From Halichondria panicea (lineage: Eukaryota; Porifera; Demospongiae; Suberitida; Halichondriidae), in NCBI RefSeq assembly GCF_963675165.1, contig NC_087393.1:3663502-3727501 (forward strand): 64,000 nucleotides of DNA, written 5' to 3'. The notes below the pieces were generated by a model, which was not told where the DNA came from, made no database searches, and saw only the letters and a program-made list of their open reading frames with translations. Both the position numbers and the translations under genes were made by a program. Shown one piece after another: positions 661 to 48,609 of this stretch. How positions within the stretch are numbered: position 1 is the stretch's first letter; each line of letters begins with the position of its first letter.

Positions 661-3600
661 TTGATTCGTTCCTTGTGACGTATGCTGACAGAGTGTTGAA
701 GTGTCTGCCTGACATCAAAACCCTCATCTCCCTGCACCAGCATCTATCAAAGGGTGTGGTCAGTGGGTGTGCCCTCGATAAGCTGGACCACAGTGATCAG
801 CTCAAAAACGCTGGTAAAGTTATCCTTTGTCATCGATTCTGTTTCCTTTCTAGAGGAGTCATTCCCGTGGTATGACTCCCGTGGTATGCTTTAGTTTTAC
901 ATGGGAGCTAGCATACATGACTTTTGTCACCGATTCTGTTTTCTTTTTAAGCGTGGTATACATTATTCTGCGTGGGAGCTGGCATACAGTGACAGTTTCG
1001 CGCACACTCAATCGTATCCCTACCCTTCCGCTAATAGAGCTTCAAGAGTCACCAGACCTCCTCTCAGTCTGGCTAGAAGTGCTGCGGTATTACCAGACCC
1101 TCTCTCCCACCATCTTCCTTGTGGCCGGCTACAACCTTACCAAACTACTGCCCACGGTGGGTGGAAAGGGAATTCCCTCTGCCGTTGTCATGCCGACAAT
1201 TCAGCTGCTCACAGAAGCTCCAGTCGGGAGCATTAAGTGGACACAGAAGGTGTGTTTGTGGGAGGAGTTCCGTACCTGTTACTGTGACATTGTGCGTACA
1301 TGTATAACAGTAATTTCTATCGTAATTATAATGACTTACATGTACGTGTTACTAAGCTGTGTTCATTGAAAAGAGAAGAGAGGCACCTGCGCTTTGAGGT
1401 GTAGCCGTAAGATTGCATGTCTTGTGATGTACACAGTATCAGTATTCAACTTAAGAATCGTTTTCTATTGAATCGTAGCCATCAGACCGAAGCAAAACAT
1501 GCCTTGAGGCATTAAGCATTCGGGGTGCTTGTGGGGTTTTTGCTTCAGTAATAAAAAAAAAAATGCATTTAAGATCGAGGGTTACATAGGTATGCATTTG
1601 CATAAGATTGTCGTCTATGTCCTTTGTCATTATTGTTGATTGCCTCCACAGGGAGGGTCAGCGCTGAAGAGTGTTCTGTTGCTCATGCTCAACCCTTCAA
1701 TGGAGATAGCAACAATGGCCACTACCCTTGCTCACAAGGTGAGACAGTAAGTATCCAATACTATGTACGCACCTTAGAAACTAGCTGAATTAGCGTACCA
1801 ATTAATGCTCGATTTTAGGTGCCATTACCAGCTTTTGTGATGGAAATTTATAAGCGCTTTTCAAGCAATTAATGAAAACGCGTTAAGAGTTATAGACATA
1901 ACAAAAGGTGCCTATCTTTTGAGTGTGAGTATGAAGTTAATAAACTATAACCTCAAAATGTCAGTACATGTAGTCAAGTTAGTAGTCTATTAGTGCGTCT
2001 ATAGTGTTGACTTGTTGTTATGTGTACTAACACCAAGAACGAAACGAGAGCTAGAGGGAGTATCGAATTTATGCAAAAGTAACGTGACTTCCAATATTGA
2101 CAATAAATATATTGCTGCCTCGAGGCACAAGTAGGGACTCCGGGCACTCAGATTGGTCAGTTACTAAGCAGGCAAGTAGTCGCGTTGCTTTCCGAATAGT
2201 TACATCTGATCAGAGATACAAAAGAAAGGGGATTGGAAACGACCGCCCACCCTATGTAAAAGGACTGACATCCGGTGAAGCACTCCGTGTAATTATTGCG
2301 CTCGCAAATAATTACATGGAAAAGTTTTATATCCCTGGTTTCTAGCTCTCCTATCCACTAGAGATCACTCAGGGCCTGGGAGATACTTGAGAGAAGTAAG
2401 CTTATACCACTGACAAGCTCTAAGTCCGTTGTCTTTACTCTGTTTCCAATTTTTTTGAGTTTAGCTTGAATTACTCTATGTCAACTTTTCTCTGTCCCTC
2501 CTGTGAAGTCAAAACAGCAAAGGACATTGCTTGACTTGGTTATTATGTATCTAAGTGCTACATAGAATGGCTTCATGCTATAGATAAGCTGTACTGTTCA
2601 AAAACGTTTGCAGTATAGTCCTTCAAACTGCTTTAGTATACTTTTAGACACGCCACGGGCCTGTCCCTCCTACGACTTCATAGTAAAGGCTATTTCTTCT
2701 TGCATAGCATTTATTTGTCTAGTAATAGTGGCTACATGGCTTAGTCGACTTTTTAGAGCTAAATTCTCTTTACTTTTTAGAAAAATCAACATTAAAAATG
2801 ATCAATTTCACTGTTTCTATGTACAGCACATTGTAGAGCAGTCAAGACTGGTAATGAGCATGCTGACTATAAATATAATCCTTTGTAGTTTTAGCTACGC
2901 CCTATAACGCGGAATGCTTCACGCAAAAATTTCGTAAAAATTTCGTTTCCAATCCCCTTTCTTTTGTATCTCTGATCTGATACACGGTACTACGTTCAAT
3001 GCTCCTCCTCTTTTAATACGGGCGCTTGCTAATAAAGTCTGACTGTCGCTGGCCATGAAAAGTCATTATACTTTCATTCTTACATACTAAGTGAAGCGTT
3101 TATGTTATCCACCTGCTCTGGTTCTTCTCGTCTCTAAAATACTAATTGTTTGGGTATGACGCTGTAAAAGCCTGGCAATTGGCAATCGAAAGAATCTTAT
3201 GTTCGAAACCAAATAATATTACCGTATTACTAGAATGTTTTGCGAGCATCAAAACATATGCGAACTTTGCGAGGGTTGATCAATTCGCAACATTAAAAAT
3301 CGCAAAACCTAAATTATTACTAGTAAATACTCACGGTCCTTTGCCAGAACGCAATAGTTAGATTGCAAAGGGCCAACATTTCTGCTGATTTGGCTCATTC
3401 GCACAGGTTTTTCACTCGCAAAATATTCTAGTAATACGGTATACTGTTTACATTAATTTGTATAAATAACATTAGTGGTCTATCACATATCTACATGTGC
3501 ACACTAGAACTAGTTTCTGTTCAATATTGAACAAAAGTTAATATTAAGTCACATTGTTCCATGTTTACGCTAGCCAAGACTTGTAGCCTGCTCTTTGTAC

Positions 3601-6600
3601 TGTGACTTTGAAGAGCACGTTTTTCCCACAATAGTCAATTTTGTTTTTCGTACGTAAAGTAGTAAGCTTATTTAACTCTGCTTCTTGTGCACAAATGACT
3701 TTACTCCACTGATCTTGTGTGCATTCGTACTCCGTGTGATTTTGGTCCTCTGTCTGGTTAAGAAGCGTGACCTTGATGCTACCCAAAAATCTTGGCGTAG
3801 CTTTCACATATATCTTCATGTCTGGTTGGGTCTCTCTCTCGAACTTTTTGACATTAAATGTTAGTACTAATTCGCAGTCAGTATGTTTATAATGTAGAGG
3901 TGGACTATTAAATATATTATCGCCTTTAAGTAGCAAAAGTGGGTCTCGTTTCAAAATGAACGGCTCTTTTTCTGATATTGATATTCTTTTGGAAGAATTA
4001 ACTTTGCTAGAGAGGCTGGTTATAACTCTATCTTGTTTTTCAACTGTTTGCATCAACTCAAGTACTTTTTCTTTTGCACCTTGGAGATGTAGCTTGGAAT
4101 CTTCCTCGTGTTTCTTCATTTTTTTTCTCACCTCTTTTTCTTCACAGCCAAGTTTAGCAAACTTGCATGGAGTCGGCTCAAAATCACATTCAGATCGATG
4201 TCTTTCTATATCTTCTCTGTGCATAGGCTGATTGCATCGTATATTTGGGCACTCAACTATCACTTTTTTGCATTCTTGCGGATGATCTTTAGTGATTGTT
4301 TTGAATTCTCCTGTTTTAGAACAGAGCTCGCATTCGTGTGGTCGACGGGGGCACGCATTTTGTTCGTGGTTTTCTAGGTCTCGACGAAGCAATCGTGTAC
4401 AATCACATTCATACATACATGCCGCTATAGCGTAATCACATTTGTCGTGATGGTCCTTTGCATTGCCCAATTCACCTTCCCATAGACACCCATATTCACG
4501 ATTGTTGCACTTCACCTTCAATCGATTCACATCTTGGTCACCTAAATTATGAGTATGTAAGTTTTTAACCTTAAGAATTATTATTTAGCTTATTTTCTTA
4601 CCTCTTCGATCGGGGTAGGTAGTGAACTCTTGTCGACAGTTAGGGCAAGTCGGATTGCTACTTTTCTGTCTGTGATCGTCTACACATGCACTTGTTGCAA
4701 AATAGTTTTCCACATTCCCCGTGCTGTTGAGCTTGTTTCACAACAGAGTGGCATATCTGACACGTTAAGCTATCTGGAAGTACTTCTATAAACTCGTACT
4801 GGGACCCTTCCATTGCTGAACAAATAGTTCATGCAAGTCGTCTTGTTTTGGTTCAAAAGTTAGTATGTTATCACATGACTTTTTAGGGGTGTACGTTTTT
4901 CTGTATTTCACATGATTATTATTCATTGCCTGTTGATGTTTCGTGCAGTGGGTTTAATTGCTGTAGAGATGTAACAATAAGTTTGTGTGCACATTCATTT
5001 CTTATCGTGTCTCAGTACGCTTGCTCATATCAGGATCCTGAATTTTTGTAGCAAAAGTCTTGTTAGTTTGCTCTGCATTTGGCATCAGCCATTATTCACT
5101 TCGCACGTTTATAGCATTACCAACAATCACATTTCCCGTAATTTCCAGCAAAGATTTTGTAAAAATTATTATTTTATACATAATTATGATTTAATTACTC
5201 GTCAGTAAAAAGCTTGCATTGAGGCATCAGCACATAATTATATAGTATTACTAAATAAATAGTTTGTATTGTAACACAATCGTAAACGTGTTTGTGTAGT
5301 TAGGTATGGCATAATTTATATAGCATTTTATTACAATGGTTACATTGTTCATGTGGTACACTCCAGCCATGGCTTGTCCCCTGGGACTTGTACAACGATT
5401 TGAAAGTACAAATTATCATTCCTCAGGTACTGTGTCGCCTTTTTACTATCGTACACTAGCCTGCTGTGTGCAATGAGGCGGGCCTTGCCCCACCCACTAG
5501 ACCTCTCTCCGCCAACCACTACACGTCCATTTATCTCCTCGTCTTCGTCAGTGGGGAAAGCAATGTTAAACTTGAGATGATTCTTATCATCAATCTGGTT
5601 AATCAGCTCCACCACTATGGTGCCTTTGAACGGCCATGTCAAGGAATTGTCGTTGTCTCCCTTCTCAAGATGGACATAAAGAGAGACGTGTGTATTCTTT
5701 CCAACTCCATTGCCGTTTGGCCAGGCTGCAAGAATCAATCTATAACCACCTTGACTCGAGTAGAAAGGGGGGCTGTAAATAACCTTGTTTTGTCGCTTGT
5801 GCTCGGAGAACTTTGTGAATCGGAAGTATATCGGTGCTGTGTATCTCCTGCAGCTGCCAATGCTTTCCTTAATGGCTTCTATGTCTTTGTTCTGCTGCTT
5901 TATCTGAGCTCTGAACATCTTATCCTGCTCTTCAATCAGTTTAGTCAGCTCCAAAACCTTCTCTTTAGTTTTCTGAAGATGTTGATGGTCGTCTTCCTCG
6001 TGAGCTATCAAATCTCTCCTGGGCAGGCGTTTTGTGCAACCAAGCTCGTTAAATTTGCAGCTGCCTACTTCGAACTGACACTCGGATTTGTGTTTCTCCA
6101 ACTCTGAACGTGGGATGCTGTCTTCACATTTGGTTTGTGGGCAGCGAACTTTAACTCCGGGACAGGTTTCGAGGTGTAGAGATACCCTCTCTGCATATAT
6201 CCCAGGTTCCGTGCAATGTGGGCAAATGTATTGTCGTCTCACACATTCGTTTTCCAGGTGGTTCTGAAGACCTTTGCGAGAAATGCGCACCATTTCTTGA
6301 TTCACGGTGCATCCATTTGGGCAGATGACCTGGCTATATTCGCATTCCTTGGTATGCTCATCTAGAGAACTGAGTGCTCCTGTCCACTGGCAGCCATCAT
6401 TTGCACCTGTGCATCCCACCTTTATCGTCTTGATCTCTTGGTCACCTGTGTAAATGTTGTGTTGCAGGCATTGTATACTGCAGGCCATATCTTCTGTAAC
6501 ATTATCAAGATATATTTTTTGCTATTTCAGCTACCGTACTTCTTCTAGAAGAAATAGCCAATGGCTTATGGGATAAATCTGCGCCTTATTAGAAGGGAGC

Positions 6601-9600
6601 CTCTTTTAGAAGAAGTACTGTAGCTTAAAAGTTACAGCAATGCTGAACACTTTAATACATCAAATCTTAGAACATTGTTTGTGCATGCCTATGTAATTGT
6701 TTGGAGCTCACTCTTTCCATCAAAGAAGGTAATTAGCTGGAGATCACAGTTAGGGCATTTGTTGCTTATCTGTCGGTGCTGAGTCAGACAGCTGTTACAG
6801 AAGAGCTTCCACACTCTCCATGTTGTTGTGGCTGCCTGGCTACAGCTAGACAGATGACACACTTGAGCCCATGAGGAGGCTCCTCCACAAACTGGTAGCC
6901 ATAGCCTCCTCTAACTCTAGTGATAGCCATCTTGGTCAGAAATAATAAATTTTGATTTACATGTGACTATTGTGTTTTGAGGTGACCTTATATAGGTGAC
7001 AGTCAACATGTTAATTGAATTCCTGTGGTTGATTTTTAGATAAAATTGGTGCTTTGGCACAAGCAAGCATAATCGTGTGATTCTTAGTTGCCTTTAATTA
7101 GCTTGCACGAAGAGGTGATTGTACGTTTGCATGAAAAACTTGTATTGAAATGAACACAAACTAGTACTTCAGAAGTGGCAATGCCTTAAAAATTATCTAC
7201 TTCCTTTCTGGCCGCTAATACTATAAGCCACATTCATGACGTATCTAATCCTCTTAAGTTATTAGATACGCAATACATTTGACGTATTATTGCAGTTGGT
7301 TTAGGCTGATGCTAATATGTGTTTACCGTTGTTCTGCTAAGGTTTCGTATACATTTTGAAGCGTGAAGCATATAAATCATAATCATTTTGTTGAGTTTAT
7401 AATTGGTGAGGGTATATAAATTTAAATGTGTTTAGTATATAAATCGTGAGGTGTGGAGTCAGCCAAAACATAATATTACCATATACAGCGTACAGCGATA
7501 CAATAGATCATGCAGAGCCTTTTTTAATAGGCTTTTCTACACTAGTAATACGAAAGTACAGCGTGTCACTCCTTAGGTACTGCCTTTTACTTGAGATGTT
7601 TGCCAGTTCTCTGTTAGAGACAAACTGTTCCTTTCCCCAACCTGTTGTGGTCTTGCCCTCAACCATTTTCCCGCTGACGTAGTCAATATTAGGGAAATGA
7701 ATATCATTGCTGAAGTGGTTGCGGTCTTGTAGCTGATTGAGTATCTCGACTTTTACAGAGCCTTGAAACGGCCAGGTTAGGTATTCGTCATCTTGTCCTT
7801 CTGTAATGGCTAGATATACAGAGACGTGTGTGTTTGCACCCTGGTTTCGACCGTTTGCATAAATCACCAATTGAAATCGATAGCCCGTTTTGAGGTAGAA
7901 CTTCGAACTGGCAAATAGCTTGTCTTGCAGCTTGTGCATGTCGAATTCTCTAAACTTAAGAGTAGTCGGTCCTTTGTATCTCACACAAGTGAGCATGCTG
8001 TGATGAAGATCAGCTAGTACTTTGTTTCTCTGTTTAATGAATACTCTGAACCTTGTCTCCCTCTGTTTGAGGATCAGTGTGAGCTCTAGTACGTTCTCTT
8101 TAGTTAGCTGTAGATGGAGTAGGTCATTTTCTTCGTGCTCCTGTAAATCAGCTAGTTTCAGTATAGCAGGACAGCCAACATCCGCAAACTTGCACTGTAT
8201 GGCTTTGTGCAGGCAATAGTTGATGTGGGTATCAAGGTAGCAACGTTGTATGCTTTGGTTGCACTCGGGATAAGGGCATTGAACTTTAGCCTTTGGGCAG
8301 CTGTCAATATGTAGCGTTGTTATCTTCTCGTATGGTCCCAAGATGCTGCAGTGTGGGCACTGGTGTGAACGGTTTGGGCAGATGGCTGAATGTTCGTTCA
8401 AATCTTTTTGTAGTAGTTTAGCGTCCGACTCGAATGTTTTGCAGTTGTTGGGGCATCTCACGACCTGGTAGTTGCATGCTGTGCTGTGTCTGAGCATAAA
8501 GCCCAGATCTCCAACCCATGGACAGCCATTGACCACATTGCTGCATTTCACCTGTAGGGCCTTCACTTCTACATCACCTATAATACTGGTTATAATAACA
8601 ATAACACGGTACATGTACTCACTCTTTCCATTGTAAAACGTGTTTAGCTGGAGATCACAATTAGGGCATTTGTTGTTTTTCTGTCGGTGCTGAGCCAGAC
8701 AGCTGCTACAGAAGAGCTTCCCACACTCTCCATGTTGTTGAGGTTGCCTGGTTACAGCTAGACAGATGACACACTTGAGCTCACGGGGAGGCTCCTCCTC
8801 AAACTGGTAGTCATAGCCTCCTCTAACTCTAGTGGTAGCCATCTTTGTTGTTTTCGATCATTCATTGACTGTCGTTACATAACTCGGGTTTTTGAGTTGA
8901 CCTTTATTAGTTGCTGTCAACAGTTCCATGTGGTTGATTTTTAGATTGTGGTGTTGTCTGCAAGTGCTGGGCGTAATCATGTGATTCCTTACTTGGCACG
9001 AAGAGGTAATTCCATTCTTACTACACAAATGTGTTAAAGAACTTGACATGTAAATTTTGATCAATCAGTTGTGCACCAAGTGTGTGGAACACCCAAAAAT
9101 TTATAACTTTACCATGCTAACTCCAGTCCTGGCGACGCCTACTATAATCCACATCTGGTACCATATATGCCACTTGATCCACTTGCATAGTTTGTTTTTA
9201 GATACACTACTGGTACATGTAGCAGCAGGTCAGGTTTATATCGAGGGTATACATTTTCGTGTTTTTCTCTGATTAAATGTGTACTGTGAATATGCATACC
9301 TACGAATATGAATATCGTATGCATGCATGCGGCAAAAGGCTAATATAGTCCACACAAATTTAATCTGCAAGTGTAAAGCAACATGTAAGTCATAATCAGT
9401 TTGTCCTAGGTGTGATTTCTAATTAACAAGGATATATATATATATATAACTGTGAGAGCTTGTCAAACGTAGGTGTGGAGTCAGCAAAACACATTACCAT
9501 ACACAGCAACACAATAGATCATTGTCTGTCAAACAGAGCCTTTTTTACAGGCTTTTCTACACTAGTAATACGAAAGTACAGTGTGTCATTTCTTAGGTAC

Positions 9601-12600
9601 TGCCTTTTACTTGAGATGTTTGCCAGTTCTCTGTTAGAGATAAATAGATCACTCCCCCAACCTCTTGTGGTCTTACCCTCAACCATTCTCCCACACACAC
9701 AGTCATTGAGGAAAGGAATAGCAATGCTAAAGTGGTTGCGGTCTTGTAGCTGATTGAGTATCTCGACTTTTACAGAGCCTTGAAACGGCCAGGTTAGGTA
9801 TTCGTCATCCTGCCCTTCTGTAATGCCTAGATATACAGAGACATGTGTGTTTGCACCCTGGTTTCGACCATTTGCATAAACCAACAGTTTAAATCGATAG
9901 CCTGTTTTAAGGTAGAACTTTGGACTGGCAAATTGCTTATCTTGCAGCTTATGCATGTCAAATTCTCTAAACTTAAGAGTAGTCGGTCCTTTGTATCTCA
10001 CACAAGTGAGCATGCTGTGATGAAGATCAGCTAGTACTTTGTTTCTCTGTTCAATGAATACTCTGAACCGTGTCTCCCTCTCTTTGAGAATCTTTGTCAG
10101 GTCTAGTACATTCTCTTTAGTTAGCTGTAGATGGAGTAGGTCATTTTCTTCGTGCTCCTGTAAATCAGCTAGTTTCAGTATAGCAGGACAGCCAACGTTT
10201 GCAAACTTGCACTGTACGGCTTTGTGTGGGCAATAGTTGATGTGGGTATCAAGGTAGCAACGTTGTATACTTTGGTTGCACTCGGGATAAGGGCATTGAA
10301 CTTTAGCTTTTGGGCAGCTGTCAATATGTAGCGTTGTTATCTTCTCGTATGGTCCCATGATGCTGCAGTGTGGGCACTGGTGTGAACGGTTTGGGCAGAT
10401 GACTAAATGTTCGTTCAAATCTTTTTGTAATAGTTTAGCGTCCGACTCGAGTGTGTTGCAGTTGTTGGGGCATCTCACGACCTGGTAGTTGCATGCTGTG
10501 CTGTGTCTGAGCATAAAGCCCAAATCTCCAACCCATGGACAGCCATTGACCACATTGCTGCACTTCACCTGTAGGGCCTTCACTTCTACATCACCTATAA
10601 ATTAATAATATGATTTAAGCCTAATGAAGGCACCGCGAGTGCTGATGCCACAGTGGATGTGTCAAAACTACATAACATAAAGCTACTATAGCTGCTAATA
10701 AACATGATGAACATTTTTGCCTAGGGAAACTCAAATCGGAGTGATTGACCACACGATTGTTACTACAAAGGATGCCCAAAGTCTGTAATTAATGGCTACT
10801 GCATCAGTAGAGCATTGCAGCTAACTACTAAGTAGAGTAGTAACACTACATGGAAAGCTTTTGCTACGCACTATTCTGAAAAGGCTGCAATGGCATTCCA
10901 AGTAAGCAGAACTAGGCATAACTCCTAGAAGCCTATAAAAACTCTTCTTGCCTTTCATTGATCCTTGGGCAGACACTGACACACACACAAACTCACTACC
11001 GTATACCGCGCTTGCGTATACACATGCCTAGGCATAATAACACGGTACATGTACTCACTCTTTCCATCAAAGAAGGTGATTAGCTGGAGGTCACAGTTAG
11101 GGCATTTGTTGCTTTTCTGTCGGTGCTGAGTCAGACAGCTGCTACAAAAAAGCTTCCCACACCCTCCATGTTGTTGGGGCTGCCTGGCTACAGCTAGACA
11201 GATGACACACTTGAGCTCACAAGGAGGCTCCTCCACAAACTGGTAGTCATAGCCTCCTCTAACTCTAGTGGTAGCCATCTTGGTTTTCCTTTAGTCACAT
11301 CACATGATGCTATTCATTATCAGATCATCATGAATATTCATACACTCCTGCATGATGTTATTCATAGCATTAGAACAACATGTACAATCATGTAAGTAAA
11401 TTATTAATGTTTAAGAACTGTTGCCAAACTAGATAAATACATGGGTTAAAAAAAAAAACATAAATAATTATAGTACAGTTTTGCGCTATAATAAATGTGT
11501 ATACATGCACCAGTTAGTTCTATGTGTACGTGTGTGTTTATGTGTCCTCGAAACTTCACTTCACATGTCGCACTCTAGCCATGGCTTGTACTCGGGTAGC
11601 TGCGTTGCTACTCTAAACACAAGTTTGTTGTCTTTGAGGTACTGACAGTTCTTACGAGACTTGTGCCCAAGGTGCCTGTGAGCAATGAAGTGTGTTGTGC
11701 CCCATCCCCTTTTCCTGACCATGCCAGTGACACGCCCGCTAACTTCCTCGTCTTGCGGAAACTTGATGGTGTATTGTTTGTGGTTCTTGTCTTCGAGCTG
11801 GTTGAGTAACTCGATGATAACTGAGCCTTGGAAGGGCCATGTGAGGGAATCATCGTTAACCCCCCTCTCCACATGGGCGTACACTGAAACGTGTGTATCT
11901 TCTCCTCCGTCAAGACCGTTAGTATTAACGCTGATGCTCAACCGGTAGCCTTTCGAACTGGAGTAAAAACTGGGACTGTGAAATGGCTTGTTGCCCACTT
12001 TGTACTTTCGATATTTCGTGAGCTCGAACGTCTTGGCTTTATTTGGAGGTGCAGCTGTTAGCGAGTTGATCTTATTTTCTTGTTGCTTGATTTCCTCTGT
12101 GAACTTCACCTCTTGTTTCTCTAGTTGGTCCATAAGCTCCAGCACCTTCTCTTTTGTGCTCTGTAGGTGCAGTCCCTCATCATCTTCGTGTGTTTTCAGC
12201 TCTCTCTTGGGAAGTTCATGATCACATCCAAACCTTGCAAACTTGCATGATGTTCGTTGAAACTCACACTCAGATTTGTGCCTCTCCATCTCACATCGCA
12301 GCACCCTCTCTCCGCATTCTTCGTTTGTACATTCGAGTGTGACCTTTGGGCACCGGTTGAGGTGCAGGTTCATTCTCTCCTCGTATTCACCCATTTCTTC
12401 GCAGTATGGACACTTGTACTGTCGTCTTGGACACTCTGTGTTGATGTGTGTCTCCAGCTGCCCCCGCTGAAGCTTGGTAATCTCTTGGTTGCTCTCACAC
12501 TTGTTAGGACATAGCAGGATAGCGTGGTCACACCTCTTCATGTGGTCTTCAATAGAGTAGAGCTCTCCCTCCCATGCACAGCCATTGGGCTGATTTTCAC

Positions 12601-19379: not shown

Positions 19380-19419
<40 letters not shown>

Positions 19420-22400
19420 ACACACATACACACACATACACATACATACATATACAGCCAGTCAACCCTTTCTCTGATGAGCGTGGTCTCGACAGTCGAG
19501 TTGAGCTTTATGATCCATGTTTCCTTCTTCCATTGCTGACAAATCAACTTGATACAAGTACGATCTCCACATTATTATTATAACTTAAGGTACCTCTTGT
19601 GTTCCTTAGGCAACTTGGTCGATTGCCGGCGGTTTATTGACTCTGGTTGTCTTGGTTACCTGATTACTGCCCTGAGCTCGAGAGTGGAAGGTGTGCGTAC
19701 CATAGGTGGGTGTGGTCTGGAGCTGTTTGTGGGTCATTTGGAGGGGAGCAGGTTTAGAGAAAAGACACAGGTAATACCAAATTTAATGGGCACAATGTTT
19801 TTCAAGATCATTATTTTATTGTAAAGCATGTCTAATGGTACACGTACATGTAGGCGCCTGAGGACCATTCATTAATTTGAGTGCTTGTAATCAGGTATAC
19901 ACCTAGTTCTAGTCACTTGTTAAAGCAGAATGTTGCAAATGTCATTAACATAATGTGATGTACGTACTTAGGTATCCCTACTACTGGAGGTACTGAGGAA
20001 CACCCTCTCTGAGAAAGATGTTAGGCTGCCCACTATTTTCACTGCCTTCTTCAGTACCACTGCCTCCCTACTCTTGCACCCTGGTGAGTACCCTCATCAA
20101 CCAGGCCAATTTTTGAACCTGCCGTATATGTCTGATCAGAGGCTGCGGCTACTAAATGTTTCATTTGCTGGCAGAGGAGGCCACAATTCGAGAGAGGCCA
20201 TTGTTCAAAAGCGGCGTTTTTTTTCAACAACCTTTGGTTTGTCATCAAAAGCTCTTTTTTCACCTGCATATAAACTCTGCCATGAGAAAGTCTTTGTGAA
20301 GCACTAACAAGCTGCTACCTAGCTACATATAACTAGCTGCTAGTAACTATGGCTGCCACGTGCAGAAATGCTAGAGTTAAGTTGAGAGCGGCTACTACAT
20401 GTTTCATTTTGCTGGCAAAGGAGGCTACTATTTGAAAATCACCGTGAACAAACTTTTTACCCCACAAAAATTACACACTGTTTACACCGCAACAGTAGTG
20501 CCAAGTTTGTACTGATTTCTTGTTATATGAGATTGATTCTTGTCCTCTTCCCCACAGAAAGTCCTCTGTACTCCGTGGTGACTCGCTTCCTGGTATACAA
20601 GCCGGCACTGGGACTGGGGGAAATCCCTATTTTGATGACCATGCTGCATAGCTCTAGTATCGAGGTACACGCATCACACACCCACATCTTTTAATGAAAG
20701 TGCACTATACACACACAATATTTTACCCGAGCCCCGAGCCACGCATGGGCGGCCACAGGTATAGTGGTCGTCTGTTTGTAATGTGTAAGTCTGCTTACCT
20801 GGATGTCATAGCACTGCGTTTACAGCATAGATAGCCTTCACACAATAAGTTATTAGTTTTAACAATGGTAGATTTCGATATTAGAGCTTCGTTGTCGAAT
20901 AAAAGCGAGCAAAAGCTTGAACTTGCACATTGGCAGCTAGCTAACTACACGCGGTCTTTATTCGAGGTTACTTACGTATTTACAGCTAAAGTGATCTTGT
21001 CCCAGGAATGATGGAAAAGGGTCACTACAATAGAAAGCTAGAATTTTGACTGATTTGTTGCTCTGTTAACTGACTCAAGAGCAAGGTTTCATACAGGATT
21101 TTTAGCTGGGAGGGGGAAACGTTTAATCGGAAAATGTTTTGAGGAATGGTTTTAAGAGATGCAATTTGGGTTTTTGTGCATACATTTCACTAGTTTAGTT
21201 CGATTGTAGATATTTTTAAGGAGAAAAATCATACATTTTTATCAGAGACTCCAGGTTTCTTTACTGTGATCCTAGACTAGGACCTAGTCCAGTCTGGTTT
21301 GGTTTTATTGCTCCTGAGTTGCTGTGCTAGACAGCTCAGTCATACATCACTACATGCATGCACTGCATTCTCTTTATAATGTAATTATGTCACCAGCTGA
21401 GGGCTTGCACTTTAGTGGTCTAGTTTTTTAGAACTTTGGTAGATGCCTTTTAGCAACTGTTTGTAACAATCCAGTGACAAAACAAGCATATTCATTTGAT
21501 GTGTTGATCACAGCATAGATTGAGTAGGGAGAGGGATTGGAAACGGAAGTTACCTCAAATTATATCCGCGTTACGCTGGGGTTTAATCGAGGCTATGTAT
21601 CTAACGTTGAGTAAAATCTGTCACCTTCGACTGTCTGCTAGATTATTATCTTGATGCTCACCATTAGGGGGCATGAGAATGACGTTTTAGGGAGGCTCTG
21701 AATATCTTGTAGTGATCATAATTCATGTTGTTTCCCGCATGTTGAGCAACCGTAACACGGATTGACATCAAAGGCTCTCTCTGGTGCCATGCTGCAAATT
21801 CAATGTAAAATGTCACGTGACGCTACTTCGTTTCCAATCCCTCTCCCTATTCAATCTATGATCACAGATACCATATACCAGGTTTTAAATGCGAACTCTT
21901 TTGATAGCAAGTGTTTGTGTATAGAATGCAAATTCGCGGTAGTTAAAAACGAAATAAGGCTTGTACCGTGTCATTCGCAAAATGGTTAACTACGCATTCG
22001 AATCCTGACATACGGTATAATTAATTAATGAAATTGCTCTAGGATTGTCAAGTTATTCTTTTCTGTACATAATGTTATAATTATTGTCACCCTCTGCCGT
22101 TTTCCCTACAATAAATTGTATGTACTTAAACTTCATAATATGCTGTTACATAATCGTGCATCCCCCCCCTTTGCCACACATAGCACAAACTGGAGAGAGT
22201 GTGGATTCTGCAAATTCTAGTGAATGGTATCCGTAGCAACGAGGACTACTCCCTTTATCACAGAAAGAGAATGTTTGATCATTGTCTATCTCTCCTTGTA
22301 ACAGGGATGACTGGGAAGAGGGATCAGGTGAGAGTCATAATGATCAGATTGAGCAATAGATTATGCAATTTTTTCTCCACGCGTGTATACAGGCTCTGAT

Positions 22401-24927: not shown

Positions 24928-26726
24928 GGCCACTCCAAGTGATACTCTGGTTTCTGGTCCACCTCCCGCATCAGATTTTATTCTTGGATTTCTATCTCAT
25001 TATTTCTACTACGCATGCGCAGAATGGTCCATGTGGTACAAAATAGTGTGATAATGATAAATTATTCATTTGCAAAATAATGAGATTCATAAGGTGAAAT
25101 TGATAATGACATAATGAGAAAAGCCGCCCGCCCGCATGCAATTAGAAAAACTTCAGGACCAGAAACCAGAGTGTCACTTGGAGCATAGATAGTAGAGGAA
25201 GGGGATTGTGAACGAGATCACGTGCGCTATAGATCATACATGAGAGCTGAGGTCTATCCGCGTTAGACCGCGAATTGACTAATTTTGAGCGGGCTAAAGA
25301 CTTTTCAGAGTTTTACTCGGTTCTAAAGGTAAGAAACGACTATCTAAGAGCCTTAATGTCAGTAGTAATCTATACTAACAATATTTTGAGCGTTTTAAGT
25401 AATAAGATATACCTGTTGAGCTACAAGTTAGCTATGACTCACCATTTACCTGTTTTTAGCACTGTTTGGGGAGAATCTAGTTTCTGATACACTTTTAGAA
25501 GCTAGTAAGCATATTGGCTGTTTCCTTGACTTGAGCTTTAACAGGATAGCCCCTTTTTTTGATATATAAGCTTTTTGTTGTTCTCCAGTGTTGTGAAATA
25601 AGTCGAATGGGGTGCCTTCTTTGTGTGGGGTGTCCTGATCTGACCGTTCACAATTGAAAGTTTTAGTGTGCATTTTCTGATTCTTTTAGCTTTACTCTAT
25701 GAGAATAGCTATTACATAGTAGCTGTACTAACTCGAAAGAATAATTTTGCCTCAATGAAAAAGTGTGAAAATGTCATGTTGCTCTTTTCCCACACAGGTG
25801 TGATTGTAAACAATGGGCATGGGAAGTCAGAAATTGCGTTTTTTCAGCGATAGAAAAGCAAGAAGCAGCAGACATCCCCCGTCTGCTCTCATCAGCCTTT
25901 ACCTGAGTCGACCAGCAACTCTTGAATCTCTCCACTTCTTGGTTGCCAAGTCAGTGTTGAACTAATTGCCGTCAAGAACGTGCTCACCATTGTCAAGCTA
26001 CCAAGAGTTGATGTCATCGTCACCTCGTGTGTTCAGTGCCAGCTCATTTGGAATTTGTCAGTACGTTCTGAATACACCCTTATACCCCCTCTCTCAACTC
26101 ATCACTCCAGTTCTTTACCAGCGTGCTGTGCTATTTTGATTGAGATACATCGATTCCCTGAACTTTTGTGATGAAAATCCTGGCCTTAAATGTTTAATTA
26201 GATTTGTGAAAGCATCACTCTTCTACACTTATTATAGTTGATCAGGTAAGTTCTGTCAAAAAATTGTTCACGAACCGTTACCCAAACGCAGAAGACCGGA
26301 CTCTGACAACACATTCTGACTCATATCATTCATAATGTACGTGTATCTTTACAATGTCATAGCTTGCGCTTGTCTGCAGTTCATAATAATGTTATATAGA
26401 TGATGAGTTGTCATGGATATTATATATTGTATAATTGTAGCATGGACACATTTCCAGAGTAGAAAGAACCTACAAAAAAAAGAATTTCAAAACTAAAAGC
26501 TTGCATACACACATAGCTCAGAGTCCTACTTCCTTGATATGTCTTCACTAGCAGAAGGGCCCACAGAGGAGGCTGCAACCATACCCAGCAACACAGATCT
26601 ATATACTTCCTGTCTACTTCCGGCCATTCTGCTAATGCTTCCGTCTAACACGGACAGTCCATGAAATTGAGTTCACGTGATCTCGTTCACAATCCCCTTC
26701 CTCTACTATCTATGCTTGGAGTGGCC
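24928..26726. mobile_element. PIF/Harbinger-like MITE split by a nested element
   Basis: The ends GGCCACTCCAAGTGATACTC and the complement GAGTGTCACTTGGAGTGGCC are flanked by TAA (24925-24927 and 26727-26729), the 3-bp TWA duplication typical of PIF/Harbinger. Without the inserted element (25184-26714) the MITE is about 260 bp and matches 34472-34743 closely. Non-coding; it would need a transposase in trans. Confidence 0.78.
25184..26714. mobile_element. CATAGAT-end transposon nested in the MITE, TSD CTTGGAG
   Basis: The left end CATAGATAGTAGAGGAAGGG is followed by GATTGTGAACGAGATCACG; the right end is the complement. CTTGGAG flanks it (25177-25183, 26715-26721); this heptamer is part of the MITE terminus, so the nesting order is certain. 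About 1.5 kb; no frame resembles a transposase. Confidence 0.85.
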
Positions 26727-26937: not shown

Positions 26938-28189
26938 CATAGATACTGTACACTCCGTGGATGTGAAACACTTCCGCCCACTACCAAAAGTCCTGAAACA
27001 CTCATTGCAACGGATGACACGGACCGAGTATCCGGAATTCCCTATAGTATACGGAACTACTGCATGGATACAATAATAACAGTAACTACGTGTGAGTGAT
27101 CAGATAACTGAAGCTCCCAGTCCAAGTTCTTCCAGTGCTAACTGATTCTCTGCGCAGGGAGAGCCAAGAGAGATGTTCATGAATGAAAGTGGATGCAGAA
27201 ATCATATTGGAACCTGATCTAGCTACATGTACACTGCTTACTTAATTTTGTGATGACATTGTATATATAGCACAGCATGTATGCACACAGAATATTATAT
27301 AGGCAGGCATCCATGCACGGAGATAGACTTAGTAATAGACAACTAAATGGACAACTAAAACTGATTTAAAGTTGAAGGAGGATTCTTCTTCGTCTTATCG
27401 CTACTTGTGCTCGTACACTTGTTTGTTAGTCTTGCATCAGGGAATAATTATGCTCCTTTCCGCTTCCTTTGGTGATAGAGCATTACCTAAATTAAAAAAG
27501 TATGTTAGTAATAATAATTTACTCAGGCCGCTGTTGTACGATCATGTATGCATCATCATCATACAGTACATTTGTATGAGTAAACATGTTCACCACAAAA
27601 AGACACGCTTTCCTGAAATAACAAAACATTTACTGAGGGTCAAAATAGATTCTCCTGGTATAAGGACATCTATATTATTGAATGACCACATCATTTAAGT
27701 GATGGAGCTTTTTGTTGGCAAGATCGCCTAACCACAAGATAGGTACTGTTGAACACCTATTTTTGACCTATCATTCAGTTTGCTGCTAGCCTTATACATT
27801 TCCTTAAGTGCTGAACACATTCTCCCAGTACTTCACTTCATAGACTAACAGGAAAGCAAAGCGAAATGTTCCAACCATAAACCCAACCAAAGATCGCCTA
27901 ACCACAAACTTGTCACCTAGTAAGTTACAGACAAAAATGAGCTCCAAAAGGCTATCCACTAATAATGTAGGCTCAATATACATGCTCTATGATAGACTTA
28001 CCTCCCACCTACGAGTACAGCAAGCCTTCTCCTCAACTGAAGCCACAAGTGCGCAGCTGTGCAAGAAAAACAACACTAAAAGTGTCCATTTCTGCAGCTG
28101 GGTGCCGTTGCATTGAGTGAACATGAATACTCCGTAATCTACCCGTATACTACCTACGTTTCACATCCACGGAGTGTACAGTATCTATG
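26938..28189. mobile_element. CATAGAT-end transposon, TSD GTAGAAC
   Basis: The inverted ends start CATAGATACTGTACACTCCG and continue TGGATGTGAAAC, with GTAGAAC at 26931-26937 and 28190-28196. It shares the seven terminal bases and TSD length with the other CATAGAT elements but has a different subterminal sequence, so it is a separate subfamily. A 108-codon frame at 27372-27698 is not recognisable. Confidence 0.8.
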
Positions 28190-28214
28190 GTAGAACTGAC
28201 GAAAAGTTTTTAAA

Positions 28215-28320: not shown

Positions 28321-28625
28321 TGTCAGCTCTCTAGTGCTCACTAGTTACAGTTGTGCCAAGAAGTATTGTTTAGTGCTAGTAGTTTCAATGCTTAGTAAGC
28401 GTGTAGTAAGGATGGAATTACCTCTGCATGCCAAGTAGAGAATCACATGATTACGCTCAGCACTGCAGACAAAACCACAATCTAAAAATCAACCACATGG
28501 GAATGGTAGTCTCGATTTCCAGCCTCTAAAGTATGGGAGGGCGTGGCCAGACTAATGGAATGGACAGCAAAAAGGTCAACTCAAAAACCTGAGTTATGTA
28601 ACGACAGTCAATGAAAACAACAAAG

Positions 28626-29960: not shown

Positions 29961-30511
29961 TCTATTGTGTCGCTGTACGCTGTATATGGTAATGTTATGT
30001 TTTGGCTGACTCCACACCTCACGTTTTATATACTAAACACATTTAAATTTTATATCTACCCTCGCCAATTATAAACTCAACCAGAGACAAAATGATTATA
30101 ATTTATGTAATTATGCTTCACGCTTCAAAATGTATACAAAACCTTAACAGAACAATGGTAAACATATATTAGCACCAGCCTAAACCAACTGCAATAATAC
30201 GTCAAATGTATTGCATATCTAATAACTTAAGAGGATTAGTAGCTTAATTATACGTCATGAATGTGACTTATAGTATTAGCGGCCAGAAAGGTAGTAGAGT
30301 TGGCTACGGTAGATGATTTTTAAGGCATTGCCACTTCTGAAGTACTAGTTTATGTTCATTTCGATACAAGTTTTTCATGCAAACATACAATCACCTCTTC
30401 GTGCAAACCACAGGAATTCAATTAACATGTTGACTGTCGTCTATATAAGCAAAACACAATACATGTAGTCACATGTAAAATTATATTCAAAATTTATTAT
30501 TTCTGACCAAG

Positions 30512-32092: not shown

Positions 32093-32308
32093 ACAATGTA
32101 ACCATTGTAATAAAATGCTATATAAATTATGCCATACCTAACTACACAAACATGTTTACGATTGTGTTACAATACAAACTATTTATTTAGTAATGCTATA
32201 TAATTATGTGCTGATGCCTCAATGCAAGCTTTTTACTGACGAGTAATTAAATCATAATATAATAATTTTTACAAAATCTTTGCTAGAAATTACGGGAAAT
32301 GTGATTGT

Positions 32309-32909
32309 TATGGGGGGTGATCAGTGCCAAAACCTCCAGCTCTTTGGTTTCAAGTCAATGCAAATATATATGAGAGTGTCATTGTAAAACTAACAAAGCT
32401 TATCATTTGCCATGCAGCGTTATTTGTATGTAGAACTTCTCATTTGTATGTAGAACTTTCATCGTGTGTAGAACTTCACCATGCAAATAAGAGTATCATT
32501 TATATGTAGAACTTCACCATGCAAATAAGAGTATCATTTGTATGTAGAAAATCACCATGCAAATAAGAGAGAGCGTGTCATTTGTATGTAGAACTTCACC
32601 ATGCAAATGAGAGTATCATTTGTATGTAGAACTTCACCATGCAAACAAGAGAGAGCATGTCATTTGTATGTAGAACTTCACCATGCAAATGAGAGTATCA
32701 TTTGTATGTAGAACTTCACCATGCAAACAAGAGAGAGCATGTCATTTGTATGTAGAACTTCACCATGCAAATGAGAGTATCATTTGTATGTAGAACTTCA
32801 CCATGCAAACAAGAGAGAGCGTGTCATTTGTATGTACAACTTTACCATGCAAATAATTTTAGTACTAAATAAAAAGAACTGGAGGTTTTGGCACTGATCA
32901 CCCCCCATA
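32309..32909. mobile_element. TATGG-end element with internal minisatellite, TSD GATTGT
   Basis: The ends TATGGGGGGTGATCAGTGCC and its complement flank 601 bp. GATTGT is duplicated at 32303-32308 and 32910-32915; the left arm near 5115-5125 has the single-copy site. The interior, about 32400-32860, is a tandem array of some ten 28-46-bp units containing TTTGTATGTAGAACTTCACC and ATGCAAAT, with a variable AGAGAGCGTG block. No coding capacity. Confidence 0.82.
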
Positions 32910-33224
32910 GATTGTTGGTAATGCTATAAACGTGCGAAGTGAATAATGGCTGATGCCAAATGCAGAGCAAACTAACAAGACTTTTGCTACAAAAATTTAG
33001 GACCCTGATATGAGCAAGCGTACTGAGACACGATAAGAAATGAATGTGCACACAAACTTATTGTTACATCTCTACAGCAATTAAACCCACTGCACGAAAC
33101 ATAACAGGCAATGTGATAATAATCATGTGAAATACAGAAAAATGTACACCCCTAAAAAGTCATGTGATAACATACTAACTTTTGAACCAAACAAGACGAC
33201 TTGCATGCACTATTTGTTTAAGCA

Positions 33225-34450
33225 ATGGAAGAGCCCCAGTACGAGTTTATAAAAGTAGATCTACTTCCAGATAGCTTAACGTGTCAGATATGCCACTCTG
33301 TTGTGAAACAAGCTCAACAGCACGGGGAATGTGGAAAACTATTTTGCAACAAGTGTGTAGACAATCACAGACAGAAAAGTAGCAATCTGACTTGCCCTAA
33401 CTGTCGACAAGAGTTTGCTACCTACCCCGATCAAAGAGGTAAGAAAATAAGCTAAATAATAATTCTTAAGGTTAAAAACTTACATACTCATAATTTAGGT
33501 GACCAAGATGTGAATCGATTGAAGGTGAAGTGCAACAATCGTGAATATGGGTGTCTATGGGAAGGTGAATTGGGCAGCGCAAAGGACCATCACGACAATG
33601 TGATTATGCTATAGTGGCATGCATGTATGAATGTGATTGTACACGATTGCTTCGTCGAGACCTAGAAAACCACGAACAAAATGCGTGCCCCCGTCGACCA
33701 CACGAATGCGAGCTCTGTTCTGAAACAGGAGAATTCAAAACAATCACTAAAGATCATCCGCAAGAATGCAAAAAAGGGATAGTTGAGTGCCCAAATATAC
33801 GATGCAATGCACAGAGAAGATATAGAAAGACATCGATCTGAATGTGATTTTGAGCCGACTCCATGCAAGTTTGCTAAACTTGGCTGTGAAGAGAAAGAGG
33901 TGAGAAAAAAATGAAGAAACACGAGGAAGATTCCAAGCTACATCTCCAAGGTGCAAAAGAAAAAGTACTTGAGTTGATGCAAACAGTTGAAAAACAAGAT
34001 AGAGTTATAACCAGCCTCTCTAGCAAAGTTAATTCTTCCGAAAGAATACCAGAAAAAGAGCCGTTCATTTTGAAATGAGACCCACTTAAAGGCGATAATA
34101 TATTTAATAGTCCACCTCTACACTATAAACATACTGACTGTGAATTAGTACTAACATTTACTGTCAAAAAGTTCGAGAGAGAGATCCAACCAGACATGAG
34201 GATATATGTGAAAGCTACGCCAAGATTTTTGGGTAGCATCAAGGTCACGCTTCTTAACCAGACAAAGGACCAAAATCACACAGAGTATGAATGCACACAA
34301 GATCAGCGGAGTAAAGTCATTGGTGCACAAGAAGCAGAGTTAAATAAGCTTACTACTTTACATACGATAAACAAAATTGACTATTGTGGGAAAAACGTGC
34401 TCTTCAAAGTCAAAGTACGAAGAGCAGGCTATAAGTCTTGGCTAGCGTAA
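33225..34450 (+). pseudogene. TRAF-like gene A' (RING exon intact, TRAF exon broken)
   Basis: Exon 1 (33225-33438) is open and encodes MEEPQYEFIKVDLLP and the RING; its donor GTAAGA and the acceptor at 33498 are good. Exon 2 (33499-34450) has multiple lesions relative to gene A: a base lost near 33598 (GACAATGTG), about 5 nt lost near 33808, a frameshift near 33910, several residues lost near 34045-34090, and an in-frame TGA at about 34077. The damage is complementary to gene A, where the RING exon is broken and the TRAF exon is intact. Confidence 0.8.
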
Positions 34451-34471
34451 ACATGGAACAATGTGACTTAA

Positions 34472-34743: not shown

Positions 34744-36131
34744 TAAGATTAACTTTTGTCCATTATACATAATATTGTACAGAAACTAGTTTTAGTGTGC
34801 ACATGTAGACATGTGATAGACCACTAATGTTATTTATACAAATTAATGTAAACAGTATACCGTATTAGTACAACCAGTAGGTTAGCACAACCAGTAGGTT
34901 GTACCATAGATGTAGGAGAGAGGGATTGGAAACGGAAGTGGGCCTCGGAAAACATCCGCGCCTCGCTTTCTTGTTCTCTTTTCTTGAGGAAAACTCATTG
35001 CATAAGCAGTGAAACAAGAGGGAAAGAGACACGATCAACAGTGTGTCGGTACATGGTAATAGTAAGGAGAATGTGCAGAGCTAGTGGTATTGGATACTTG
35101 TTTCCCAGTAGATATAAAATCATCAGAGGATGCTTAGTTCCCTGAAATTGTGAATGTATTTGTGACTGTCAGAGGCTTCTCTTTTGCTGCCAACGAAAAA
35201 GAAAACCATCAAGAAGTCCACTAGTTTGAGGCAATAACCATGATCATTCACACGACAAGATACATAATACACCATGTAACTTTCTTAATAATTGTTTTCA
35301 CTTTTGATGAATCAATTGTACAAAGTTTCTATATATACTAGGCTGGTGAGCATACATTTCAATTTCCAATTCATTAAGTATAATTACATACACTTGGAGA
35401 CAGTAAAACACTCCACAGCACTGCTAGTTGTTTTCTAAGTGTAAAACGAGTGGGATCAAACCGAACAACATTAACAAAAACTTACACGATAAAAATGATT
35501 ATTACAGCTATAATTATGATTAGTTTAGCACTCTAATCAGACAGTCTTAGATGGAGAGAAGCTGGTGAGGTATACAAGGGTGTATATATAGCCGGAACAG
35601 CCGATAACATTTACGAGGGCGGTGACGTGTAGGGGTGTAGAGAGGAGGGGTATTCTTCTGTCTTCTTTTCTTCAGCGTACTCATGGCTTGCGAGGTATTG
35701 CTATATAAAATATAGATGAAACAGCATTTGTAGTAGTTAAATATCTCAGGCCTACAGGCCCTTCACCACAATCTACTACCGGGCCAATAACAATTATGAG
35801 GTAAAAATAGATGACTACACATTCATGCACACAAAAGCTATACATCCACCTGATCCAAAACTAATGCTCTTGGGGTGATCACCAATCATAAGGGAATGTA
35901 TGCCTAAAATTAAAATTTCTGTAACGCTTAGCGTATTCCCAAAAAAGCGATCTTTAGTGGTGCTCTTTAATTCAACTTTTTTCTAGCACTAAATTCTACC
36001 AGCTGATGTATGACTAATTTTCTTTGGCTTGGGGTGATACCACATGATTTACCAACAAGCATATTGAAGTATACGACCTAAACATTAATCATTTCAGAGA
36101 AAAAGGGATAAATGTGTACAATACAAGATTA

Positions 36132-37420
36132 GGCCACTCCAAGTGACACTCTGGTTTCTGGTCCTGAAGTTTTTCTAATTGCATGCGGGCGTATGGCGCG
36201 CCGTGTGTTTCAATAACAATGTCTGCATATACATAGGAGTGTCCTGGTGTGAATATACAGACATAGCATGCACGTGCAATGATCGCCTTATGCAGTGATC
36301 ATGTCTGCACATGCAACCATTAGTCTCTGCACATGCAGTGATCATGTCTGCACATGCAGTGATCATGTCTGCACATGCAACCATTAGTCTCTGCACATGC
36401 AGTGATCATGTCTGCACATGCAACCATTAGTCTCTGCGTGTGCAGTGATCATGTCTGCACATGCAACCATTAATCTCTGCACATGCATGCAGTGATCATG
36501 TCTGCACATGCAACCATTAGTCTCTGCACATGCAGTGATCATGTCTGCACATGCAACCATTAGTCTCTGCACATGCAGTGATCATGTCTGCACATGCAAA
36601 ATGTGTTCCAGCCGAGTACTTCAATGGCAGATTCGTCTTCATCCATGTCCATATCATCTATTATATCCATCATTAATTTTTAATACATCTTTGATACACG
36701 TGCTTTAAATAGAGCTGCTGCATCAGGTCAAAGTATATGTTTCTCAATGGGACTCAGGTACACCTATACTGTACTGCATGTGCAGAGATTAATGGTTGCA
36801 TGTGCAGACATGATCACTGCATGTGCAGAGACTAATGGTTGCATGTGCAGACATAATCACTGCATGTGCAGAGATTAATGGTTGCATGTGCAGACATGAT
36901 CACTGCACACGCAGAGACTAATGGTTGCATGTGCAGACATGATCACTGCATGTGCAGAGATTAATGGTTGCATGTGCAGACATGATCACTGCATGTGCAG
37001 AGACTAATGGTTGCATGTGCAGACATGATCACTGCATGTGCAGACATGATCACTGCATGTGCAGAGACTAATGGTTGCATGTGCAGACATGATCACTGCA
37101 TAAGGCGATCATTGCACGTGCATGCTATGTCGGTATATTCACACCAGGACACTCCTATGTATATGCAGACATTGTTATTGAAACACACGGCGCGCCATAC
37201 GGGCGGGCGGCTTTTCTCATTATGTCATTATCAATTTCACCTTATGAATCTCATTATTTTGCAAATGAATATCATTATCACACTATTTTTGTACCGCATG
37301 ACCATTCTGCGCATGCGTAGTAGAAATAATGAGATAGAAATCCAATAATGAGATAGAAATCCAAGAATAAAATCTGATGCGGGCGGTGGACCAGAAACCA
37401 GAGTATCACTTGGAGTGGCC
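36132..37420. mobile_element. Harbinger-like MITE, middle layer of the nest, TSD TTA
   Basis: The ends GGCCACTCCAAGTGACACTC and its complement are flanked by TTA (36129-36131, 37421-37423). It is interrupted by the palindromic element at 36192-37199. With the insert removed, it resembles 34472-34743. Confidence 0.85.
36192..37199. mobile_element. Near-palindromic element, TATGGCGCGCC ends, TSD CGGGCG
   Basis: A 1,008-bp element. Each arm is about 410-430 bp: roughly 100 bp of unique terminal repeat (TATGGCGCGCCGTGTGTTTC…) followed by a subterminal array of units with GATCATGTCTGCACATGCA and ACCATTAGTCTCTGCACATG. The arms are mirror copies around a centre of about 180 bp near 36600-36775. CGGGCG is duplicated at 36186-36191 and 37200-37205, and the uninterrupted MITE has it once, so the insertion is certain. 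Frames such as MQRLMVACADMITACA are repeat read-through. Confidence 0.85.
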
Positions 37421-38049
37421 TTAAACTTACCTAAATTCAATGAAGAAGATAGTTGCAACGGTAAATAGAGCTTGAATAATGGTTATTCACTATCTATATA
37501 AAGCACAGTTGCACTGGATACTGGAAAACTTGACAGAATACTAGTGACAACCTAGATTTGCAATAATCTCAGTTACCTGCGAAGTTCCTGGGGAATAGAT
37601 TAGCCCTCATTAAGCGAGGCGCGGATGTTTATCGAGGTCATATGTGAAGTACATTGAAATCTACTTCTGTTTCCAATCCCTCTCTCCTACATCTATGGTT
37701 GTACATAGGATTGACAGTGCAGTTGTGTGTTTTCAATTATTGCACAAATTTTGACTCGTGTTTAGACTGCTCTATTTCTGCAGGGAAGGGCCACAGCAAG
37801 AAACTGAGTTGACAGATAGCTTAGTTAGCCTTTTATCTGTCTAAATGTGTGAAATTATAGTCAATGAATATTCTCATGCATTACTATTGATATTTGAAAA
37901 ATTGCGCTATTTTCATATTTCACCGCGTTTCGTCTGACTGACTAAGTAAGTTAGTAAGTAAGTTAGTAAGTAACTTTCTTGGAAAGAATTTCCTCCTTGT
38001 ACAGACATGTTCAGAAGATTCTAGATACAGCCTCTAGTCGACTAGAACC

Positions 38050-39468: not shown

Positions 39469-39699
39469 TAAACACAAAACCTCCTTTCTTTAGCTCAGCT
39501 CTCCATTCTCTCACTTCAGGTATGCTATTTATGCTAGACGCACTGACTGGATCTACCATAGGCCTCCATGCTTTTGCACTTGGAAGTACATCTACATGGC
39601 TGCCATTATTTTTATCATAGATAAATGACTGAATAAAATGCTGAATAATGTTTATTCCAGTCCTGTCTTCTCTTCTTGAACTTCTCTTGCTTCTTAATG

Positions 39700-40510: not shown

Positions 40511-41450
40511 TGATTACTAGAATATTTTGCGGGTGAAAAACCTATGCGAATGAGCCAAATCAGCAGAAATGTTGGCCCTTTGTGATCTAACTATTGCGTT
40601 CTGGCAAAGGACCGTGAGTATTTTACTAGTAATAATTTAGGTTTTGCGATTTTTATTGTTGTGAATTGATCAACCCTCGCAAAGTTTGCAAATGTTTTGA
40701 TGCTCGCAAAACATTCTAGTAATACGGTAATATTATTTGGTTTCGAACGTAAGACTCTTTCGATTGCCAATTGCCAGGCTTTTACAGCGTCATACCCGAA
40801 CAATTAGCATTTTAGAGACGAGAAGAACCAGAGCAGGTGGATAACATAAACGCTTCACTTAGTATGTAAGAATGAAAGTATAATGACTTTTCATGGCCAG
40901 AGATAGTCAGACTTTATTAGCAAGCGCCCGTATTAAAAGAGGAGGAGCATCGAACGTAGTACCGTGTATCACGTGTATCAGATGTATCTATTCGGAAAGC
41001 AACACGACTACTTGCCTGCTTGGTAACTGAAGCACTGGATTGCTTTGATCTACCCACTCACTGGGTAACAAATACATGCACTATCCATGAGGACCATGAC
41101 GTCAATTAAGAGCACTTAAATTATACTCGGTGCAGGTATCTCTTCAACTTGCTATAATTATAGCTCTTATTGATGTAGTTAGCTGAATTTCTGATCAAAA
41201 CTCGCTCTCTATATATAGCTGCTGCTTCTTTTTTTTTACCCATTAGACGACTTCACCCATCACGATTAAAATAATTATGTTGTGGTACTGTATTGAAAAA
41301 CGGGTTATTATAATCAAGTATCAAAATGTAACTGCTGTAACTGTCATGCATGGCTGTGCACCCTAATTTTTGGAGTGAACATAATAATTATGACAGAAAA
41401 GTGAACAGTATACATTTTGTGCAGAAACTAGAAGGTATCAATTTTCACGT

Positions 41451-46719: not shown

Positions 46720-46958
46720 ACTAATAACTAAAACTTAATACTTTTTGTTGTTTTTTTGACAGGACCTGCATTAAAACCCACACTGTGGATGCAGCATTTC
46801 CTGTCCAAATAAAAAGTTATCTATCTATCTAACCCCGAATAGCGGACACCTCTAAACTCCGAACAACACTTGCACGAAAGATACATGGTTTCATAGGAAT
46901 GGGTGTGGTTAGGAAGGGCTGGTATGAAAAACCAAATCAATGGGTGTGACAGTTATCA

Positions 46959-48084: not shown

Positions 48085-48609
48085 CATAGATAGAGTAGAG
48101 AGGGATTGGAAACGGAAGTACCCTCAAAGTACCATCCGTGTATCTCCGCGGTTTTAATCGAGGCTTACTTTTTAACACAAGGGCTAAACATGAATAATTC
48201 ATGAGAATTGTCTGTAAGAAGTCCACGAGCAGTTCTGCTGTTAAACATAAACTTTCATTTCATACTTAAGGCCATTTGGGACACAGGACACTATTTAGTT
48301 ACACAGCCTTAGCTATATCAAAGGTACTATAGGAACACAAGCATGAAAAAGCGCTCTGTGTATCTCTAGCTACTTCACGACAATCAAGATTATATTTTCT
48401 TCGTTTCCAATTGATACTTACTATCAGGGGACATGTGATTCAGTAATGGGGGTAGCTCTGAGATGTATGCATTGGACACAACAAGTTTCCCAGGATTTTT
48501 GCGGGAGTTATGAGGAGATACACAGATGGTCCCAGAGCCACTACGTAGACTTCATTGTAAAACATTACGTGAATCACTTCCGTTTCCAATCCTCTCTACT
48601 CTATATATG
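48085..48609. mobile_element. CATAGAT-end MITE, TSD ATGGCAT
   Basis: A 525-bp element with left end CATAGATAGAGTAGAGAGGG, then ATTGGAAACGGAAGT, and right end ACTTCCGTTTCCAATCCTCT … CTATATATG. ATGGCAT flanks it at 48078-48084 and 48610-48616. Non-coding. Confidence 0.85.

Follow-up and report, generated by a model that had tools for sequence, protein, structure and literature searches.

The six transposable elements in the window (64,000 nucleotides of Halichondria panicea DNA) are gene-less, non-autonomous derivatives of P-superfamily cut-and-paste transposons, and their family has been recently active. Autonomous copies of about 4.4-5.1 kb lie elsewhere in the same genome, carry two genes and, judging from the shared ends, would mobilise the window elements in trans. 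We put the probability of this P-type, two-gene identification at about 0.9. P elements are a founding model of eukaryotic transposition, and the open-access literature searched describes them as having one gene and a THAP DNA-binding domain. A 7-bp target-site duplication (TSD) is already known from the P-superfamily element Galileo; the conserved second gene (ORF2) and the missing THAP domain are the unexpected part.

When the sequence was re-read, the coordinates given for the six elements in an earlier note proved exact, with perfect 7-bp repeats flanking each (Table 1). The terminal inverted repeats (TIRs) are ungapped over the first 29-41 bp and perfect or near-perfect in five of the six, the sixth (48085) having a small indel about 19 bp into the TIR in addition to its variant right end. 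The view that five elements share one subterminal sequence holds loosely; it fails for 25184, where the inner box is GGGATTGTGAACG instead of GGGATTGGAAACG and the nearest autonomous ends are those of the C9:2950576-2954992 lineage (GGGATTGGCAAC). The 2211 type has its inner box and TSD length in common with the other types. In the window CATAGAT elements other than 26938, likeness to the autonomous copy is confined to the terminal 30-90 bp: the first 81 bp of 21514-21860 and the first 88 bp of 48085-48609 each align at 79% with the end on the ORF2 side of the 4.66-kb autonomous copy described below. In element 26938-28189, by comparison, positions 26938-27209 align at 81% with the end of the C14 element on its ORF2 side, and positions 27589-28189 at 88-92% with the transposase-side end of the C7 element; the element thus matches both sides of its two-gene type and is therefore an internal-deletion derivative. 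Element 25184-26714 sits in another repeat, and its joined flanks match uninterrupted copies of that repeat, 10 bp past the junction. Copies of the same host repeat (36129-36191 and 37388-37421) flank 298-nt inverted arms in the repeat nested within 34905-37697; these arms are tandem repeats (TGCACATGCAGTGATCATGTC..., window 36190-37201). The window also holds a large inverted segmental duplication (3544-10600 and 28613-34471) with TRAF-type zinc-finger genes, its arms 92-98% identical.

Table 1. P-type elements and associated sites; positions without a prefix are those of the window.
Feature	Position	Strand	Length	TSD	Remarks
Non-autonomous element, CAGAGATAC end type	2211..2974		764 bp	ATCTGAT	32-bp perfect TIR
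Non-autonomous CATAGAT/GGGATTGGAAACG element	21514..21860		347 bp	ATCACAG	
Non-autonomous CATAGAT element	25184..26714		1531 bp	CTTGGAG	41-bp TIR with GGGATTGTGAACG
Internal-deletion derivative of two-gene element, CATAGATACTGTACACTCCGTGG ends	26938..28189		1252 bp	GTAGAAC	
Non-autonomous CATAGAT/GGGATTGGAAACG element	34905..37697		2793 bp	GTTGTAC	Contains nested foreign repeat
Nested repeat within 34905-37697	36129..37421				Host-repeat copies flank inverted arms
Natural empty site, inverted paralogue of 2211 flanks	40775..41030	-			One ATCTGAT, no element
Non-autonomous CATAGAT element	48085..48609		525 bp	ATGGCAT	Right end ATATATG
Two-gene element, closed	C16:4252551-4257172			GTTTTAC	CATAGAT TIRs, identical 20-bp ends
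Two-gene element, closed	C9:2097267-2102390			GGCAAAC	CATAGAT TIRs
Third two-gene element	C9:2950576-2954992			CTCAAAG	Left end eroded
Element with 26938-type ends (L151)	G000:C14:490500-492270		1.7 kb	CTGGCAT (from flanks)	ORF2 kept, no transposase

The element ends were then counted across the host genome (131 Mb), with the reversed pattern as control. There are 565 occurrences (289 + 276) of the CATAGAT...GAGGGATTGGAAACG end, 67 of the 26938-type end and 238 of the 2211-type end, and each reversed control returned 0. In a sample of 53 complete insertions across the three end types, the TSD was exactly 7 bp in 51 and absent in two, bearing out the proposal of a coherent transposon family with 7-bp duplications; two of the 51 have common flanks and represent a single insertion within a duplicated segment. 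The two insertions lacking a TSD may be chimeric copies like those reported for Galileo (PMC3573991). Pooled targets are palindromic in preference (T-n-n-GT-n-n-n-AC-n-n-A); after symmetrising, the second TSD base is T, and the sixth A, with a frequency of 82% in either case. Two empty sites confirm the 7-bp duplication: the natural one in the window (41030-40775) is 93% identical to the 2211 flanks across the junction, and locus L030 has a single GTTTTAC at the repeat site corresponding to 34905, an empty relative. As a separate observation, different P-type elements have hit the same position of related repeats at the 34905 site, L030 and L032 (GTAGGTT(G/T)TAC), and likewise at the 48085 site and L128 (GCTCTG(C/T)TGATGGCA), which suggests that particular sites in repeats are favoured as targets.

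The earlier note had rightly found no transposase in the window, and proposed looking for longer members and comparing them with transposase profiles. Autonomous copies were located by spacing, as end pairs 4.66 kb apart, and then read. Three such copies (L031-L033) have CATAGAT...GGGATTGGAAACG ends, are 99.9% identical and each carry a 7-bp TSD; they encode a P-superfamily transposase. Their near identity, together with their different sites and different TSDs (ATGCAGC, GTTTTAC and TCCGCAC), indicates recent movement.

The L032 transposase is 844 amino acids long when spliced from five putative exons, the joins being a reading of GT-AG sites. It matched three P-specific Pfam domains above cut-offs (PF21787, 7e-25; PF21788, 2e-12; PF21789, 1.6e-7), covering the N and C parts of the P-type RNase H fold and the GTP-binding insertion, and its sole PDB match was the Drosophila P transposase (6p5a, E=4.6e-13). 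In the 6p5a alignment, D406, D503 and E776 correspond to the P catalytic residues D230, D303 and E531, and the DxxH motif is retained (SDIPHLIK aligned to SDTPHLIK). The first catalytic aspartate is present in all eight aligned lineages, and DxxH in the six whose frame is open there. Eight GTP-contacting residues have been listed for the Drosophila P transposase (PMC7776569); seven are identical in the sponge protein (K385, K400, V401, F443, D444, N447 and D528), the odd one out being S409, replaced by lysine. Divergent lineages likewise have CA...TG terminal inverted repeats and a 7-bp TSD. On the strength of the P-specific domains, the 6p5a match and the catalytic and GTP-binding residues, we assign the family with high confidence to the P superfamily; the CA...TG ends had given a hint of this, and the transposase of same-ended copies now shows it. 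That the elements come instead from a different superfamily whose duplications measure 6-8 bp (Dada, hAT or Mutator) is extremely improbable; the duplication length alone speaks for it, and against it stand the P-specific domains, the GTP-binding insertion among them, that are encoded by full-length copies whose ends are the same. In the Pfam scan of these copies only P-type domains were significant, by which Dada, hAT and Mutator were ruled out (Dada if it is modelled there).

The 7-bp length had been read as arguing against the known P superfamily, a point that falls with Galileo, a Drosophila P-superfamily element that makes 7-bp duplications with the consensus GTANTAC (PMC4168063, PMC2775673). 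Galileo resembles the sponge family in its P-type transposase, 7-bp TSD and GTANTAC-like target (PMC4168063, PMC2775673), but differs in having a THAP domain, very long TIRs (~300-1200 bp; PMC3573991) and no second gene described. The sponge elements have TIRs of 20-41 bp, a convergent ORF2 and no THAP found; of the Galileo features, the 7-bp TSD with a GTANTAC-like consensus is present and the long TIRs are absent. It is therefore very unlikely, to our reading, that these are ordinary Galileo/1360-type members of familiar architecture: the shared TSD length and GTxxxAC target are consistent with such membership, whereas the short TIRs, the second gene and the distance of the nearest THAP match from any sponge P transposase (13 kb, against a THAP within the Galileo transposase) are not. 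The Drosophila P element (PMC7776569; PDB 6p5a/6pe2) shares the catalytic D, D and E, seven of eight GTP-binding residues and TIRs of similar size (~31 bp), but makes 8-bp TSDs, and a single protein holds both its THAP and its C-terminal domain. Zebrafish Pdre2/THAP9 (PMC10983969) is alike in its CATA- terminal sequence (CATACCTG...), P transposase and non-autonomous copies, and differs in its 8-bp TSDs, THAP domain and single gene. PIF/Harbinger and Pong (PMC5543537) offer an analogy only, in that they too are cut-and-paste elements with two ORFs, one for a transposase and one for a companion protein; their transposase superfamily and TSD are different, and no homology is claimed. In the open-access literature searched (Repbase, Dfam and subscription papers being outside its scope), no P-type element with a conserved second gene and no poriferan or cnidarian P element on point was found; a database-only or unpublished description of a two-gene P element may exist.

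A Pfam scan of the spliced transposase found no THAP domain, and the host genome gave 14 THAP matches, none closer to a P transposase than the distance given above. The N-terminal region instead holds a conserved four-cysteine motif ending in (R/K)CxxCxxYRxxL, possibly a zinc-binding DNA-recognition domain. A diverged THAP may sit in a 5' exon of some lineages. We take THAP as typical of the P superfamily rather than defining, because it is the catalytic and GTP-binding core that defines the superfamily.

The second gene of the 4.66-kb copies is a convergent open frame of ~330-350 amino acids. A search of the host genome with ORF2 returned 63 matches, and 81 when a second lineage was added. 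Among 44 P-transposase loci, defined as clusters of P-transposase matches in the host genome, 36 have an ORF2 within 10 kb against a chance expectation of ~0.4, and in all 36 it lies downstream in opposite orientation (tail to tail). One family accounts for eight of the 36, as near-identical copies, leaving ~28 separate lines, which are not fully independent because they descend from common ancestors; the remaining eight of the 44 loci have no detectable ORF2, several of them being fragments. The motifs W, RY-xxGY, DRGGL and TIRGF are common to the ORF2 of eight lineages (aligned in full or part) whose transposases are 29-59% identical. Between diverged pairs, ORF2 differs by 0.62-0.68 at codon position 3, which is nearly saturated, and by 0.40-0.49 at position 2, which is not, showing constraint at the protein level. 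Distances for transposase and ORF2 are correlated (Mantel r 0.73, p 0.014), as expected if the two travel together.

ORF2 had no significant match in Pfam, NCBIfam or PDB, no profile similarity to the transposase itself and no relative among the prokaryote and viral contigs searched. Its weak match to Tnp_P_element_C (E=0.19-0.2) bears on the idea of a split transposase, in which the C-terminal domain of the P transposase would have become detached and would now form a separate convergent gene, ORF2. The transposase ends ~68 amino acids past the catalytic glutamate, whereas a C-terminal domain is present in zebrafish THAP9 and Drosophila P, and the alignment of one ORF2 member with Tnp_P_element_C falls on the conserved RYVAGYV motif (E=0.19). 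That match is not significant, however, and was seen in one of nine ORF2 members, and ORF2 matches neither PDB 6p5a nor the transposase profile; we consider a split transposase unlikely. The Pfam Tnp_P_element_C model (PF12596) run against the sponge's own genome gave 0 matches, which weighs neither for nor against. It is somewhat less doubtful, though still improbable, that ORF2 is a self-regulator (repressor) or a passenger, dispensable for transposition. Its standing as an independent, convergent gene with no recognised domain would suit such a role, as would the many non-autonomous copies that lack it, except that these would be moved in trans and so do not discriminate; retention at 36 loci and the protein-level constraint exceed what a passenger would lead one to expect. 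The layout could also be inherited without ORF2 being required for transposition. Our preferred reading, held tentatively and at a little under even odds, is that ORF2 is an accessory transposition protein that would replace the THAP or C-terminal-domain function of single-gene P elements. With similar reserve, this may be an ancient P-superfamily branch working as a two-protein system, in which a THAP-less transposase depends on an obligatory ORF2 for end recognition or C-terminal function.

By analogy with P and Galileo, the elements most likely move by P-type cut-and-paste transposition. The transposase would bind a lineage-specific box ~20-33 bp inside each end, the ends would pair with GTP as cofactor, GTP-dependent excision would follow, and insertion would proceed with a 7-bp stagger at roughly palindromic TnnGTnnnACnnA targets. 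ORF2 would most likely act as an accessory protein in this process, whether as a relocated C-terminal domain, a partner that binds ends or targets, or a repressor. A branch that lacks THAP and has a conserved second gene would demonstrate that the P catalytic core can work with another DNA-recognition and partner arrangement, and the near-identical, intact-looking copies make the two-gene system testable. Set beside that of Galileo, the 7-bp stagger offers a comparison for what sets duplication length (7 or 8 bp) within one superfamily.

Three further two-gene lineages (Table 1) all start with CATA and carry the inner-box variants GGGATTGGAAAC, GGGATAGGAAAC or GGGATTGGCAAC. The suggestion that subfamilies with differing inner boxes use one transposition machinery stands as to the type of machinery, but the two-gene elements form several related lineages, and the ends are particular to each. 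A two-gene relative of the 26938 type lies on C7 and has the 26938-type end on its transposase side. In the loci read, no autonomous partner was found for the CAGAGATAC ends of the 2211 type. The right TIR of L151 is duplicated in tandem. Nested within a 6.0-kb CATAGAT element (L034, G000:C1:7527847-7533837) that has a 7-bp TSD is a Gypsy-like polyprotein frame of 1332 amino acids. Finally, a 4.0-kb element with the same ends and the 7-bp TSD GTATTAT (L035 241-4246, G000:C1:7557140-7561145) has an ORF resembling tyrosine recombinases (DUF3504, E=6.7e-17; Phage_integrase, E=5e-10), possibly a Crypton-like or host gene that was captured or became nested there.
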